The notes beneath the pieces are model-generated. The model had not been told where the DNA came from and made no database searches. It saw only the letters and a list, made by a program, of their open reading frames with translations. A stretch of DNA of 64,000 nucleotides, from positions 1,984,001-2,048,000 of the forward strand of contig NZ_CP065383.1 of the NCBI RefSeq assembly GCF_015775515.1. Direction: 5' to 3'. The position numbers were made by a program, and so were the translations under genes. The stretch is from Atribacter laminatus. GTDB lineage: Bacteria > Atribacterota > Atribacteria > Atribacterales > Atribacteraceae. Of this stretch, positions 2,526 to 50,724 are shown piece after piece; positions within the stretch are counted from its first letter, which is position 1; each line of letters begins with the position of its first letter.

Positions 2526-2589
2526 AACTTAACCTCCAATTATTTCTATCCTGTAAATACTGAAATGAGTAATAAATGATTAAAAAAAT

Positions 2590-3060
2590 AAGAAAGGCAT
2601 ACCTCCCTTAAATCTCTCCTTGATGGAGGAATAAATACAACAATTCCTCTCCTTGGAGGGGTGCCGCTTTCGCGGCAAGGAGGGTGCTTTTGGTTTTTTT
2701 GGTTACCCTGAGATAATGAGAAAGTAACAAAAAAATTTTGCTAAATGAGATTGCCACGTCACTCCGTTCCTCGCAATGACGGAGCAGTAAAAACTCAAAT
2801 CCCTCTTACCCCCTTTGCTAAAGGGGGAAATGATCGACATATAATTTTTTCATTGTCAACTGGTGCTACTAAGCAGCATGAAGGTCTATCCTGAAAACCC
2901 ACGGGCATGATAAATCAAGCCCCTACAAAAGAATATAAAATTGTAGGGGCATAATGTAATGTTCATGATTAATGTAGCGACATGCCATGGCATGTCGAAT
3001 CTTGGGTTTTAATCCTCATTCTCAACTTCTCCCATCAAGGGAGAAGGAAAAAATGATCAG
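2590..3060. repeat. Mosaic intergenic repeat block 2 (between hydF and hydG)
   Basis: No gene. Pieces in order: CTCCTTGGAGGG elements with a GCCGC..GCGGC hairpin (2625-2690), a GATTGCCACGTC..CGCAATGACG element (2748-2782), a CCCCTTTGCTAAAGGGGGAA element (2805-2830), the GGTGCTAC..GCAGCATGAAGGT element (2860-2900), the GCGACATGCC..GGCATGTCG element (2965-3000), and a TCTCCCATCAAGGGAGAAGG hairpin (3025-3050). Each piece recurs in other gaps of the window. Confidence 0.75.
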
Positions 3061-3092
3061 AAGGAAATTTTAAAAAATTGCATCGTCTCCGG

Positions 3093-4526
3093 TTAAAAAT
3101 ATAAATCTCGTTCGCCATTTTCGATGAGCCTTAGGCGTTCCTCGGTTAGTTTTCTCACTTGTAAATTGGGAATGGCTTCAAGATGTTCCTTGATAGTTAA
3201 TTCACCAATTTTTTTAGTTTCTTCTGAAGCATAATCTTCTAAAAATTCCTTAAAAGTAAGGATGGCATTGGGCTGACACACATTTTGAATCTGTCCGGAT
3301 TTTGCCAAAGGCATGAAACGATCTCCAGTTCGACCTTTACGGTAACAAGCGGTACAAAAGCTGGGAATATACCCCGATTGGCATACACTCCTTAGGACTT
3401 CATCAGGGCTGCGGTGGTCTTCTACTTGAAATTGAGGAGAATCCTGAATTATTCCAGCCCTTTCCTTTATTTGATCATATTCTTCCCGATACCCGCCAAC
3501 ACCGGTACAAGAACCAGCACTAAGCTGAGAAATCCCCAGCGAAGCTAACTCATCTCGAAAAGAGGCTTTTTCCCGGGTGGAAAGAATGATCCCGGTGTAG
3601 GGTACTGCCAGACGGAGCACGGCAATAATTTTGCGGAATTCATTGTCATTGACTAAATGCTGAGAGAGGAGTGAATCAACTCCCAAAGCTGGTCGTAAAC
3701 GAGGTACCGAAATAGTGTGCGGGCCAACTCCGAAAATTTCTTCGAGATGAAGGGCATGCTGCAGCAACCCGAGAACTTCAAATTTATAATTATAAAGACC
3801 AAACAAAACTCCAGCACCAACATCATCGATGCCGGCTTCCATGGCTCGATCCAAAGCAGTGGCATGATAATCATAATCGCTTTTTGGTCCCTGAGGATGC
3901 ATATATTGATAGGTTTCACGATGGTAAGTTTCCTGGAAAAGAATGTAGGTTCCAATTTTAGCTTCTTTCAATTTTCGGTAGTTATTGATGGTGGTGGCGG
4001 CGATATTGACGTTGATCCTTCGAATACTTCCTTTTCCCTCATTGACTCCATAAATGGTATGAATGGTTTCAAGAATATACTCCAAAGGACAGTTTACCAG
4101 ATCTTCCCCGGCTTCCAAGGCTAATCTTTTGTGGCCCATGGATTCGAGAATTTTTACTTCTTCGACGACTTCTTCTTGACTTAAACGACGACGGTGAAAC
4201 TCGTTGTCTTGTTGATACCCACAATATCGGCAATTATTAATGCAGTAATTACTAATATAAAGAGGAGCAAAAAAAACTAATCTTTTTCCGTAAATTTTTA
4301 ACTTAATTTCTTTGGCAACATGATAAATTTCTTCTAGTATTGCTGGATCATCGGTTTGGAGGAGGATGGCGCATTCTTCAGGAGAAAGGCCTTGAGCCAT
4401 TCGAGCTTTCTCGATGATATCCATAATTTCTTTTCGATGACGATTTTTCCCCTTTTCTAATAAATCCTCAATACTTTTTTCGTCAATAAAATCAGCTTTT
4501 TTTCTTTCATTGAGAACCAAAACCAT
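3093..4526 (-). CDS. hydG: [FeFe]-hydrogenase maturase HydG (tyrosine lyase)
   Basis: Radical-SAM enzyme that cleaves tyrosine to supply CO and CN- ligands for the H-cluster. The 477 residues carry the SAM cluster motif C95-x3-C99-x2-C102 and the HydG-specific C-terminal motif C391-x2-C394-x22-C417 that binds the auxiliary cluster with the dangler iron. The C-terminal motif separates HydG from the related thiazole synthase ThiH. A strong AGGAGG precedes the ATG, and the gene overlaps the end of hydE by 20 bp, so the two are translationally coupled. It acts in the cytoplasm with HydE and HydF. Confidence 0.96.
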   Translation of the reverse strand: MVLVLNERKKADFIDEKSIEDLLEKGKNRHRKEIMDIIEKARMAQGLSPEECAILLQTDDPAILEEIYHVAKEIKLKIYGKRLVFFAPLYISNYCINNCRYCGYQQDNEFHRRRLSQEEVVEEVKILESMGHKRLALEAGEDLVNCPLEYILETIHTIYGVNEGKGSIRRINVNIAATTINNYRKLKEAKIGTYILFQETYHRETYQYMHPQGPKSDYDYHATALDRAMEAGIDDVGAGVLFGLYNYKFEVLGLLQHALHLEEIFGVGPHTISVPRLRPALGVDSLLSQHLVNDNEFRKIIAVLRLAVPYTGIILSTREKASFRDELASLGISQLSAGSCTGVGGYREEYDQIKERAGIIQDSPQFQVEDHRSPDEVLRSVCQSGYIPSFCTACYRKGRTGDRFMPLAKSGQIQNVCQPNAILTFKEFLEDYASEETKKIGELTIKEHLEAIPNLQVRKLTEERLRLIENGERDLYF

Positions 4527-5601
4527 GATAAGCCTCCTTTTTAGTTAAAGAATATTTTTTTATTTTTACCGCGTGGCCATAACTCATCGAAATAGTCCGA
4601 TTCATTTCTTTCAAGAGTTTTTTCAGATTGTTCATGCTTTGTTTAGGATCTTCGATGATGTCGATTTTTTGAGGATAGATGGAATATTGATCGCGAACTG
4701 TTAGAGGCGTGAAATTAGGCATGATGACGTTTGCTCCCGATCCTAAAGCTAAGCGACGAGCATCATCATTTACCGTACTAATAGCGGTGGTAGCCGGAAG
4801 ATGAATGGTTGGAAGAACGATTCGGGTAATAGCCAGAATTTTTAAGGTTTGTGAGAGAGAACCAGCCGAATAACATCCCAGTGGTGTGTCGGGATGGGGA
4901 AGAAAAGGCCCAATACCGGCCATTTCAACATTTAATTTTTTCATAAGGAGAACATCATCAATCAGTGATGTTAAAGTTTGGCCAGGAAGCCCAACCATAT
5001 TTCCCGAGCCAATTTGATAGCCGAGATCCTTTAAATCCATCAAGCAATTGATTCGATCTTGAAGGTTTTTCCCCGGTCTTATTTTCTGGTAAAGAATTGG
5101 GTCGGCGGTTTCATGTTTTAATAAATAGCGGTCAGCCCCAGCATTCAGCCAGATTTGGTAACTCTGATGGGGGTGTTCTCCTAATGATAAGGTAATCGCT
5201 ACGTCAAAATGCTTTTTAATGAATTCGATGACGTGTGCAATATCATAAGGTTGATAAAACCGGTCTTCTCCTGATTGAAGGACGATGGTTTTTAATCCGT
5301 ATCTAACTGCTGTTTGGACCGATTGGTAAATTTCCTGATTGGTTAAGCGATACCGAGATATTTTGTGGTTTCCTGCCCGTAATCCACAGTAGAGACAATG
5401 ACAGGAACAGTAATTGGAAAACTCAATAATCGCCCTGAGGTGAACTTCATCACCAACCTGCTTTTTACGAATTTGATTGGCGTATCTTAGAAGAGCAGGA
5501 AGTTCAAACTCGCCTAAATCAAACAGTTGTCGAAGAGATTCTTGATTAAAATTTCCCGGTTCTTTGGTTAGCATAGGCTGGTTATCTATTGCTTCTCTCA
5601 C
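4507..5601 (-). CDS. hydE: [FeFe]-hydrogenase maturase HydE
   Basis: Radical-SAM protein that makes the organometallic precursor of the H-cluster dithiolate. The SAM cluster motif is C65-x3-C69-x2-C72 (CSCHCLYCG), followed by a BioB-like barrel with QSGED, a GMVGLPGQT segment and PNFTP near the end. The length of 364 residues is usual. The start is a GTG with AGGAGG placed just upstream. The gene is second in the operon: the small ACT-like regulator precedes it by 12 bp and hydG overlaps its end. The second, non-essential cluster motif of some HydE proteins was not seen. Confidence 0.95.
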   Translation of the reverse strand: MREAIDNQPMLTKEPGNFNQESLRQLFDLGEFELPALLRYANQIRKKQVGDEVHLRAIIEFSNYCSCHCLYCGLRAGNHKISRYRLTNQEIYQSVQTAVRYGLKTIVLQSGEDRFYQPYDIAHVIEFIKKHFDVAITLSLGEHPHQSYQIWLNAGADRYLLKHETADPILYQKIRPGKNLQDRINCLMDLKDLGYQIGSGNMVGLPGQTLTSLIDDVLLMKKLNVEMAGIGPFLPHPDTPLGCYSAGSLSQTLKILAITRIVLPTIHLPATTAISTVNDDARRLALGSGANVIMPNFTPLTVRDQYSIYPQKIDIIEDPKQSMNNLKKLLKEMNRTISMSYGHAVKIKKYSLTKKEAYHGFGSQ

Positions 5602-5613
5602 TCGTTTCCTCCT

Positions 5614-5865
5614 TTATCGAGTGACCAAGGTACTTTTAACTTTGATACCGGGAATTTGTCCCAAACGGCCGGTCAAAGCTCCAATTTCATCGGTACTTCC
5701 GTCAACAATAATGGAGATAATTGACAATGATCTCTCGTGATAGGGGAGCCCCATTCGACCGATAATGACTTCGTTAAATGTACTAAGAAGTGAGTTGACC
5801 TGAGGAACTTGTTGCCGGTCTTCGATAATGATACCAATGACACCAATCCGTTTTTCGGAAACCAT
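5614..5865 (-). CDS. TM1266-type iron-only hydrogenase system regulator
   Basis: Small protein of about 83 residues with the beta-alpha-beta pattern of ACT/NikR-C-like domains: KRIGVIGIIIEDR, then NEVIIGRMGLPY, then LSIISIIVDGSTDEIGALTGRLGQIPGIKVKS. This is the TM1266 family, found beside hydEFG in many fermenters and named as a putative regulator of the [FeFe] hydrogenase system. Its exact role is unproven. GTG at 5874 and ATG at 5865 are both possible starts; the ATG is preferred because AGGGGTGA lies at the right distance. It heads the hydE-hydG operon, downstream of the structured leader. Confidence 0.88.
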   Translation of the reverse strand: MVSEKRIGVIGIIIEDRQQVPQVNSLLSTFNEVIIGRMGLPYHERSLSIISIIVDGSTDEIGALTGRLGQIPGIKVKSTLVTR

Positions 5866-5969
5866 ATCTATCACCCCTGGAAACTTATCTTTGCTGATAA
5901 CCTATGCCGGAGGAGGGATAGTTCGGTATCGTAAGAAGAAAAAAAGAGGCAAAAAAGGATTTATCCAAT

Positions 5970-5998
5970 AAAAAAGCCTGTTTATTAATCAAACAGGC
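5970..5998 (-). terminator. Intrinsic terminator of the leader RNA
   Basis: On the minus strand an 8-bp stem (GCCTGTTT at 5991-5998 as read in reverse, pairing with AAACAGGC) and a 7-nt loop are followed directly by a run of six U. It lies about 105 bp before the start of the TM1266-type gene, so it would either end a small RNA or act as a conditional terminator in the operon leader. Confidence 0.85.
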
Positions 5999-6117
5999 CA
6001 AATGGATTCAAGGTTAAACTTCGCTGCCCCTTGACCACAGGACCGTTCGCCCGTTTGCCTCAGGTATACGATATCTTTTCATCCCATCCGGTTAGAAAAA
6101 CTTCCTTCCGGTCAGGT
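5970..6117 (-). ncRNA. Structured leader RNA or small RNA upstream of the hydrogenase maturation operon
   Basis: About 148 nt from a predicted start near 6117 to the U-run at 5970. Visible pairing on the minus strand: a hairpin closed by CCGG/CCGG with an inner GGAA/UUCU helix near its 5' end, a closing helix AUGGGAU/AUCCAU around the middle domain, and an inner UCAAGG/CCUUGA helix capped by a purine-rich loop. The intrinsic terminator follows. Promoter, compact fold and terminator just before an operon are the layout of a riboswitch or attenuator, but I cannot match it to a known class. It could equally be an independent small RNA. No reading frame is apparent inside. Confidence 0.6.
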
Positions 6118-6123
6118 GTCTTA

Positions 6124-6152
6124 AATATACTACAAATTTGAAGAATTTTCAA
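6124..6152 (-). promoter_or_regulatory. Sigma-70-type promoter for leader RNA and hydrogenase maturation operon
   Basis: Read on the minus strand: TTGAAA (6147-6152), a spacer of exactly 17 bp, then TATATT (6124-6129). This is near-consensus and would start transcription about 7 nt downstream, near 6117. Confidence 0.75.
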
Positions 6153-7674: not shown

Positions 7675-7950
7675 CCCGTTCTAAATCCGTCATTGCGAGG
7701 AGTCTGATCGTTTTTTGATTAGATGACGTGGCAATCTCATTTAGCCAATCTTTTTTGTCCTTTTCCAAGGATAAGCAATAAAAAAATTAAAAAATAAAGA
7801 CACCCTCCCCGCTGCAAAGCTCCACCCTCCAAGGAGGGGAATTGTTATGTTCATTCCCTCATTAAAGGGGGGACTAAGGGGGGTGTGCATTTCTCATTTT
7901 TGTTTGATCACTTTTCACTGTTTCCGGTATTTTCAGGATAGACTCTAATA
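7675..7950. repeat. Mosaic intergenic repeat block 3
   Basis: No gene in 7513-8076. The repeats include a GTCATTGCGAGGAG..GACGTGGCAATCTC element (7689-7737), CCACCCTCCAAGGAGGGG (7825-7845), an AAAGGGGGGACTAAGGGGGG element (7865-7885) and a TTTTCAGGATAGAC element (7930-7950). The rest, 7513-7670, is AT-rich with no visible feature. Confidence 0.7.
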
Positions 7951-10440: not shown

Positions 10441-11260
10441 GGATAGACCCTCATGCTGCTTATGCAGCACCACATGAGGATGAAAATGCCTTCCCAGGAA
10501 TCGTTTCCCCCCTTAGCAAAGGGGGTAAGGGGGATTTGAGTTTTTTTCCTGCTCGGTCATTGCGAGGAGCGTCTTGTGCGACGTGGCAATCTCTACCATC
10601 CACTTAGTCATTCTGAGGAGTCCGGTGTCTTCTGCCGGACGACGTCAGAATTTCATCCTTTAAAGTATTTATAAAGAAAAAAAAACTAAAAAGATGAGAT
10701 CCTCACGCCCTCAAAAAGCGAGGGCTCAGGATGACCGATTAAAGGCACACCCCCCTTTATCCCCCCTCAATGGGGGAATTTATAAGATGGTATCTTCAGG
10801 ATAGACCCTCATGCTGCTTATGCAGCACCACATGAGGATGAAAATGCCTTCCCAGGAATCGTTTCCCCCTTTAGCAAAGGGGGTAAGGGGGATTTGAGTT
10901 TTTTTCCTGCTCGGTCATTGCGAGGAGCGTCTTGTGCGACGTGGCAATCTCTACCATCCACTTAGTCATTCTGAGGAGTCCGGTGTCTTCTGCCGGACGA
11001 CGTCAGAATTTCATCCTTTAAAGTATTTATGAAGAAAAAAAAACTAAAAAGATGAGATCCTCACGCCCTCGAAAAGCGAGGGATCAGGATGACGGAGGGG
11101 TTGGATGGAGATCCTCACGCCCTCAAAAAGCGAGGGCTCAGGATGACCGAGGGGTTGGATGGAGATCCTCACGCCCTCAAAAAGCGAGGGCTCAGGATGA
11201 CCGATTAAAGGCACACCCCCCTAACCCCCCTCAATGGGGGAATTTATAAGATGGTATTTT
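10441..11260. repeat. Direct tandem duplication, 358-bp period
   Basis: The segment starting GGATAGACCCTCATGCTGCT at 10441 starts again at 10799 and is nearly identical through the AAAAAACTAAAAAGATGAGA stretch and up to the GGGGGAATTTATAAGATGGT end, with only scattered substitutions. The second copy is longer because it holds an internal 54-bp tandem expansion. Confidence 0.85.
11055..11215. repeat. 54-bp tandem repeat, about 2.8 copies
   Basis: Units start at 11055, 11109 and 11163 (AGATCCTCACGCCCTC..GGGCTCAGGATGACC). Each holds an inverted repeat, GCCCTC with GAGGGC around AAAAAGC. The third unit is interrupted after GATGACC. One unit is present in the first copy of the 358-bp duplication (10695). 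Confidence 0.8.
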
Positions 11261-49293: not shown

Positions 49294-50724
49294 GTATTTA
49301 GCCTACCTATAAGGAATTGAAACTACCACTTGCTAATTTTCGGGAGATCCATTAGCAAGTATTTAGCCTACCTATAAGGAATTGAAACTAAACTGATTTT
49401 GGATATGTTCGAATTTCTTTAATTTCGTATTTAGCCTACCTATAAGGAATTGAAACTTTTTTTCACGCTCCTTTAATCTCATTAATTTTTATGTATTTAG
49501 CCTACCTATAAGGAATTGAAACCTTTATTGATCCTGTTTTGGATTACCAAAACAGGATGTATTTAGCCTACCTATAAGGAATTGAAACAAATAGTTTCGA
49601 GTAAAATCTTTCGTAACTGCGACAGTATTTAGCCTACCTATAAGGAATTGAAACTTCCATTGACCGGAGACGTAGCCAAGGGATTTGTCGAGTATTTAGC
49701 CTACCTATAAGGAATTGAAACTACGGTTTATTGCATCCCCACAAAAAATTGTTTTGAGTATTTAGCCTACCTATAAGGAATTGAAACTGAAATGCCCGGT
49801 TAATGCCGGGCATAAGGGTAAATAGTATTTAGCCTACCTATAAGGAATTGAAACTAACAGCGGTCTTCAAAGCCCCCGATTAAATAAGATCCGTATTTAG
49901 CCTACCTATAAGGAATTGAAACTCTTCTATTGGATAGACATCGATAAATTTTTCTTGTTGTATTTAGCCTACCTATAAGGAATTGAAACATCACATCGTC
50001 TTCGTCGAAATATTTCCCATGTTCTTGTATTTAGCCTACCTATAAGGAATTGAAACTTACCTATTCCGATGATGACTATACCGAAAAATCAATGTATTTA
50101 GCCTACCTATAAGGAATTGAAACTCGGATAGTCCGGCATTAAATTTCCTCCAGCTCGAGTATTTAGCCTACCTATAAGGAATTGAAACTAGGTACTCATT
50201 GGAAAAAACGTTGAAACACTGCATTGTATTTAGCCTACCTATAAGGAATTGAAACGTTCGTTTGGGTTATAAATACGGGCATAATTATCAACAGGTATTT
50301 AGCCTACCTATAAGGAATTGAAACAATACTTGCAATTCATCCCTTTTTAAGTTTTTTCGTAATATTTAGCCTACCTATAAGGAATTGAAACAATCTACTA
50401 CATATTGTGGCATGAGATTGCACTAACATAGTATTTAGCCTACCTATAAGGAATTGAAACAGTGCTAAAATTCAACTGGAAAATGATATACTAGAGTATT
50501 TAGCCTACCTATAAGGAATTGAAACAATTATGCTGACTACTGCGGGGATATGGTCATTCGTGCGTATTTAGCCTACCTATAAGGAATTGAAACTTGGGAT
50601 CATCGGTTTTATCTACCTTCTCGGTGTCGTATTTAGCCTACCTATAAGGAATTGAAACCCGGATATTTTGATAGTTGGGAAATAGCAACGGTAAGTATTT
50701 AGCCTACCTATAAGGAATTGAAGC
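49294..50724 (+). CRISPR. CRISPR array, 22 repeats, 21 spacers
   Basis: The repeat is 30 bp, GTATTTAGCCTACC then TATAAGGAATTGAAAC, repeated at 49294, 49359, 49427, 49493, 49559, 49625, 49692, 49758, 49825, 49893, 49960, 50027, 50094, 50159, 50226, 50295, 50362, 50431, 50496, 50564, 50629 and 50695. Spacers are 35-39 bp. Repeat 17 begins with A instead of G, and the last ends GAAGC. The 3' ATTGAAAC is the typical 5' handle processed by Cas6 for type I-B and III systems. All spacers look different from one another. Three spacers are perfect hairpins. Confidence 0.98.

Follow-up and report, generated by a model that had tools for sequence, protein, structure and literature searches.

A symmetric, covarying hairpin in the leaders of H-cluster biosynthesis genes, a probable OFF-switch RNA

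The window, a 64,000-nucleotide stretch of the Atribacter laminatus genome analysed as a whole, has on its minus strand a leader RNA followed by genes in the order TM1266-hydE-hydG-hydF. The first-pass annotation had placed here a near-consensus promoter with a 17-bp spacer, a structured leader of about 105 nt, and an intrinsic terminator, all ahead of a TM1266-type gene, hydE, and hydG. The promoter and the terminator hairpin with its T-tract were found as described, family searches agree with the gene order, and the leader is indeed structured, its length being ~118 nt and not ~105. The features are as follows.

6124-6152, minus: sigma-70 type promoter, TTGAAA (6152-6147), 17-nt spacer, TATATT (6129-6124); consensus scan
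start near 6117, minus: leader RNA, ~118 nt, between promoter and terminator
6079-6117, minus: motif copy 1, ACCUGA-CCGG-AAGG-loop-UCUAA-CCGG-AUGGG; matched by covariance models R1 and R3
6116-6114/6085-6083 and 6111-6108/6091-6088, minus: helices P1 and P2 of copy 1, respectively
6027-6064, minus: motif copy 2, CCUGA-GGC-AA-(ACGGG..CCUGU)-G-GUC-AAGGGG; manual decomposition
5990-6057, minus: predicted antiterminator, CAAACGGGC (6057-6049) with GCCTGTTTG (5998-5990); MFE fold
6013-6008, minus: CCTTGA.., partner of GGTCAAGG in a second pairing of the predicted antiterminator; MFE fold
5970-5999, minus: intrinsic terminator, GGCCTGTTTGATTAATAAACAGGC + TTTTTT, hairpin at 5999-5975; consensus scan and stepwise folds
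5614-5874, minus: TM1266-family gene (PF21699, TIGR03959); family search
4507-5601, minus: hydE (TIGR03956)
3093-4526, minus: hydG (TIGR03955)
1302-2525, minus: hydF (TIGR03918)

The case for the leader rests on comparison, because the consensus scans perform at chance level in this region (seven promoter matches against 6.6 expected, and three terminator matches against 2.5 expected) and the folding z-score of the leader is a modest -1.84. The leader is present once in the 3.1-Mb single-contig genome. Four other species of the genus have it at 95-96% identity; the promoter is kept in these four relatives, and the terminator stem shows a compensatory change from T-A to C-G among them. Beyond the genus, a shared short hairpin was first recognised by eye in TM1266 leaders L026-L029, which come from further families of the Atribacterota, and in many of the 80 loci taken from other phyla. 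This motif is a hairpin of ~37 nt with the consensus YCURA-N4-RARG-loop-UCURA-N4'-(A)RAGG, the first position being C in the CCURA version. The half-site YCURA-N4-RARG is present twice per hairpin and pairs with itself, and the halves follow a common profile (r = 0.85, column-permutation p = 2.5e-4). Hence, the hairpin carries two copies of one purine-rich internal loop, facing opposite ways and separated by 4 bp. The internal loops are conserved, while the central 4-bp helix P2 that they flank is free to vary in sequence, and the terminal loops are variable.

The window leader comprises two motif hairpins in tandem. Copy 2 is divergent, with a longer inner helix and a weak R3 match (6065-6024, E = 0.96), and it is assigned largely by analogy with L037 and L025, where the hairpins have the same arrangement at a spacing of 48-52 nt. 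Overall, pairs spaced by 47-52 nt are seen in L025, from a different genus of the same family as the window genome, in L037 from Desulfoscipio, and in three Bacillota genomes. Other arrangements were observed as well. Three genomes (G455, G580, and G556) have paired motif matches 400-540 nt apart, and a Syntrophomonas locus (L042) has two separate motif-plus-terminator leaders at 1152-1188 and 1769-1805, one ahead of TM1266 and the other between TM1266 and hydG.

Covariance model R1 was built from ten sequences, nearly all clostridial and none of the window lineage. Its seed was restricted to sequences of equal architecture, because MAFFT put the 5' arm in the wrong place when loops of differing length were aligned together. 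Blind to the lineage, R1 returned a single match at E ≤ 10 in the whole 64-kb window, at 6117-6079 on the minus strand (E = 0.0019), and it also matched the leader of a sister species (E = 0.007). Model R3 was built from 58 sequences aligned after a further round, R2, and scores copy 1 at E = 4.4e-7 with a near relative in its training set. A strict regular-expression form of the symmetric motif was dropped as a search tool, being too insensitive. Over the 58 sequences, the covariation score of P2 is 0.502, compared with 0.152 for shuffled and 0.237 for the best slid version, in alignments that after seed A3 were all fitted to the model, which favours the model. The four P2 pairs carry many double changes, and RNAalifold recovers P2 by its own folding on the alignment fitted to the model. 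Covariation of P2 was already seen in the hand-collected sequences, with the variants UUGC:GCAA, GAAC:GUUU, CCGC:GCGG, and UUAC:GUAA; a further variant, CAGA:UCUG, came from the model searches. The P1 pairs show no double changes; P1 is conserved and not covarying, and it is offset by one extra A in many sequences. The motif is thus, as expected of a riboswitch, a conserved and covarying aptamer-like element.

We then inspected how the motif relates to the signals behind it. A script search found a terminator after the motif in 54 of the 62 leaders. The 3' half of the motif pairs with its own terminator arm at -11.9 kcal/mol as against -9.6 kcal/mol with the arms of other leaders (permutation p = 1e-4). 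For the window transcript ending in the terminator loop, the predicted antiterminator is the MFE structure, and 12 of 2000 shuffled arms were as good; in stepwise folds, the full transcript forms the two motif hairpins plus the terminator. Judged from sequence and predicted folds, the expression platform is therefore exclusive with the motif fold, in the manner of a riboswitch. Some leaders of hydG (L150, L152, and L154) and of ECF genes (L280-L282) have no room for a terminator, and there the 3' strand of the motif is itself the Shine-Dalgarno stretch. The two kinds of platform share their logic, and the folded motif should hence correspond to the gene being off.

Motif searches covered 291 clostridial and 249 further Bacillota genomes, 540 in all. 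Genes were named by family searches or by blastp against the window proteins and reference proteins of these loci, and the names of NifHDK-like proteins and hydrogenase subunits are our reading of the sequences. The motif lies ahead of TM1266, hydE, hydG, aspA, an ECF S-component gene, an SsuABC-like transporter, or a nitrogenase-like operon in 46 of the 51 tabulated loci; in L146, outside these 51, it precedes TM1266 and an ECF gene. A TM1266 leader is followed by hydF in L151, the motif precedes aspA-hydF in L156/L198, and a locus in G161 has the order TM1266, ECF S-component, hydrogenase subunits. Ammonium for the bridging ligand of the H-cluster can come from AspA, which is itself linked to hyd operons (PMC11736057). 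In L193 (G174:C59, motif at 869, reversed strand), a genome in which HydG was not detected, the motif precedes a nitrogenase-like operon encoding NifH-, NifD-, and NifK-like proteins, a FecBCD-type transporter, and a HydE-like protein. Two importer types are found repeatedly in the regulon alongside H-cluster genes (L194, L195, L196, L197, L200, and L280), namely an ABC importer of SsuABC/NMT1 type and a family of ECF S-components. Among the 198 Desulfobacterota genomes, three TM1266 leaders contain the motif. In several Atribacterota families, TM1266 is present with no leader directly ahead of the gene, which counts against the explanation favoured below.

Some matches were rejected. Five R3 matches in Bacillota (L287, L290, L294, L296, and L297) lie within or beside unrelated genes and were judged false; about five false matches were expected in the larger Bacillota draw. 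Three Desulfobacterota matches (L301-L303) were rejected on the same grounds, and these rejected matches are together about as many as expected at the E cut-off. A 27-nt match of 93% identity between motif copy 1 (window positions 6109-6083) and L006 (G004:C267:3511-3537) is the coding start of aspS and was taken as chance.

The first-pass annotation had found no known class for the leader, and the Rfam 15 search of the window leader and those of its relatives agrees, with nothing above the gathering threshold and L10_leader as the best match of leader type (20.8 bits, with 44 needed). It had further proposed control of the hydrogenase maturation operon, to be refuted if the helices were not conserved upstream of hyd genes in relatives; the comparison supports this reading, since in several phyla the same genes are preceded by the helix in conserved and covarying form. 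Like terminator-type riboswitches and attenuators, the element is a 5' leader in which an aptamer-like fold and an antiterminator exclude each other, and some members act on the Shine-Dalgarno sequence instead; neither its sequence nor its structure, however, fits any Rfam family. Autogenous RNA-binding repressors, such as ribosomal proteins, PyrR, and TRAP, offer another likeness, as the gene of the putative regulator is here often directly behind the leader site, the RNA binding of TM1266 being putative. The guanidine-II (mini-ykkC) riboswitch, tandem aptamers of which have been described (PMC9481103), also consists of small tandem hairpins with twofold character. However, it conserves the terminal loops of two hairpins, whereas our motif conserves two internal loops of one and has variable terminal loops, and no guanidine-II match was found by Rfam in the window or its relatives. 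PMC9481103 reports a tandem Wco (tungsten cofactor) riboswitch upstream of certain hydrogenase genes; it too is a leader RNA, at times tandem, near a hydrogenase gene, but differs in size and consensus, and has no match in the window or relatives. The open literature searched described no RNA motif ahead of H-cluster genes; subscription papers, preprints, and a 2017 survey of 224 candidate RNAs lay outside its scope, so a prior description is possible.

Taken as a whole, the motif, its covariation, the gene association, the terminator and Shine-Dalgarno overlap, and the complementarity support a class of cis-acting leader RNA that probably acts as an OFF-switch for H-cluster biosynthesis genes, a judgement that concerns the class and not the identity of the effector. 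When the hairpin or hairpins form, the downstream terminator would form or the Shine-Dalgarno sequence would be hidden, and expression would stop. When they do not form, the motif strand would pair with the 5' arm of the terminator and transcription would continue. A trans-acting effector may stabilise the folded hairpin. Attenuation is a known kind of mechanism; as an RNA class, the element seems new. That the hairpins are fortuitous, next to an ordinary promoter and terminator with no regulatory RNA, would suit the chance-level scans and the low folding z-score, but covariation, the blind R1 match, and the gene association contradict it and make it highly improbable.

As to the effector, the leading candidate is the TM1266 protein itself, which, with somewhat less than an even chance, would act as a feedback RNA-binding repressor. 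To our knowledge, the only role proposed so far for TM1266 is regulation of the iron-only hydrogenase system. The protein consists of a NikR C-terminal-like sensor domain standing alone, with no DNA-binding domain, and PDB 2NZC is its Thermotoga homologue. TM1266 is favoured mainly because the hairpin is a twofold repeat of a half-site and because of the position of its gene, and in addition because the motif tends toward genomes that contain it. Among the 291 clostridial genomes, TM1266 is present in all 22 with the motif and in 175 overall, an association biased by seeds drawn from TM1266 leaders; HydG is found in only 15 of these 22. In a local test around hydG at E ≤ 0.01, the motif occurs in 11 of 33 TM1266-bearing versus two of 33 TM1266-lacking genomes (p = 0.011), and with TM1266's own leaders left out, in seven of 33 versus two of 33 (p = 0.15). 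In two draft genomes, G120 and G299, hydG has a good motif, but a search relaxed to E ≤ 10 detected no TM1266. On a more tentative footing, TM1266 may be an RNA-binding protein made of a lone NikR-type sensor domain; it would recognise the twofold-symmetric duplex of internal loops and shut down the entire H-cluster regulon at the transcriptional or translational level, dedicated importers and the nitrogenase-like operon included, in several phyla.

The same OFF logic would hold if the hairpin were a small-molecule riboswitch that binds a metabolite or metal tied to H-cluster assembly, for example a cofactor taken up by the ECF or SsuABC-type transporter, an iron species, or a pathway intermediate, possibly two per hairpin. 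Expression platforms of typical riboswitch type, two unrelated importer types within the regulon, the closely spaced tandem copies, and the two motif-bearing genomes in which TM1266 was not detected all suit such a switch. Nevertheless, the element is very small, with no junction or pseudoknot, its conservation is limited to the two repeated internal loops, and it is associated with TM1266. We regard a riboswitch as only slightly less probable than control by TM1266. Alternatively, some other RNA-binding protein could recognise the hairpin, or attenuation could work with no effector at all, through kinetics or temperature. Short symmetric hairpins commonly serve as protein sites, and nothing in the data singles out one effector; the regulon, however, is narrow and restricted to H-cluster-linked genes, which argues for a dedicated, pathway-specific signal and leaves this explanation unlikely. 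A protein effector is no less likely than the sensing of SAM, tyrosine, iron, or a redox signal that the earlier annotation had suggested. The presence of importers in the regulon hints at a compound taken up from outside, which could be a ligand of either the RNA or TM1266. The bridging ligand of the H-cluster is made on lipoyl-H-protein, and lipoate would thus be the first candidate.

The chemistry of [FeFe]-hydrogenase maturation is well studied, and the literature searched gave no account of its regulation at the RNA level in bacteria. The element defines a regulon that names genes working together in H-cluster supply, namely aspA, the ECF S-component gene, the SsuABC-like importer, and the nitrogenase-like operon. 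It opens the function of TM1266 and the nature of the imported compound to direct tests, and could serve for tuning hydrogen-producing strains.

Other features of the window were recorded. The gap between hydG and hydF (2526-3092) holds repeat-like sequence (e.g. TTGATTTATCATGCCCGT and GTCATTGCGAGGA) that appears again at 7680-7920 and looks like dispersed repeats. Short in-frame repeats (HPEPSLFEGVRISIQPL) at 11044-11249 are readable on both strands and are probably a dispersed DNA repeat, not a gene. A CRISPR array with repeats of the Rfam CRISPR-DR2 type lies at 49294-50658 on the minus strand.
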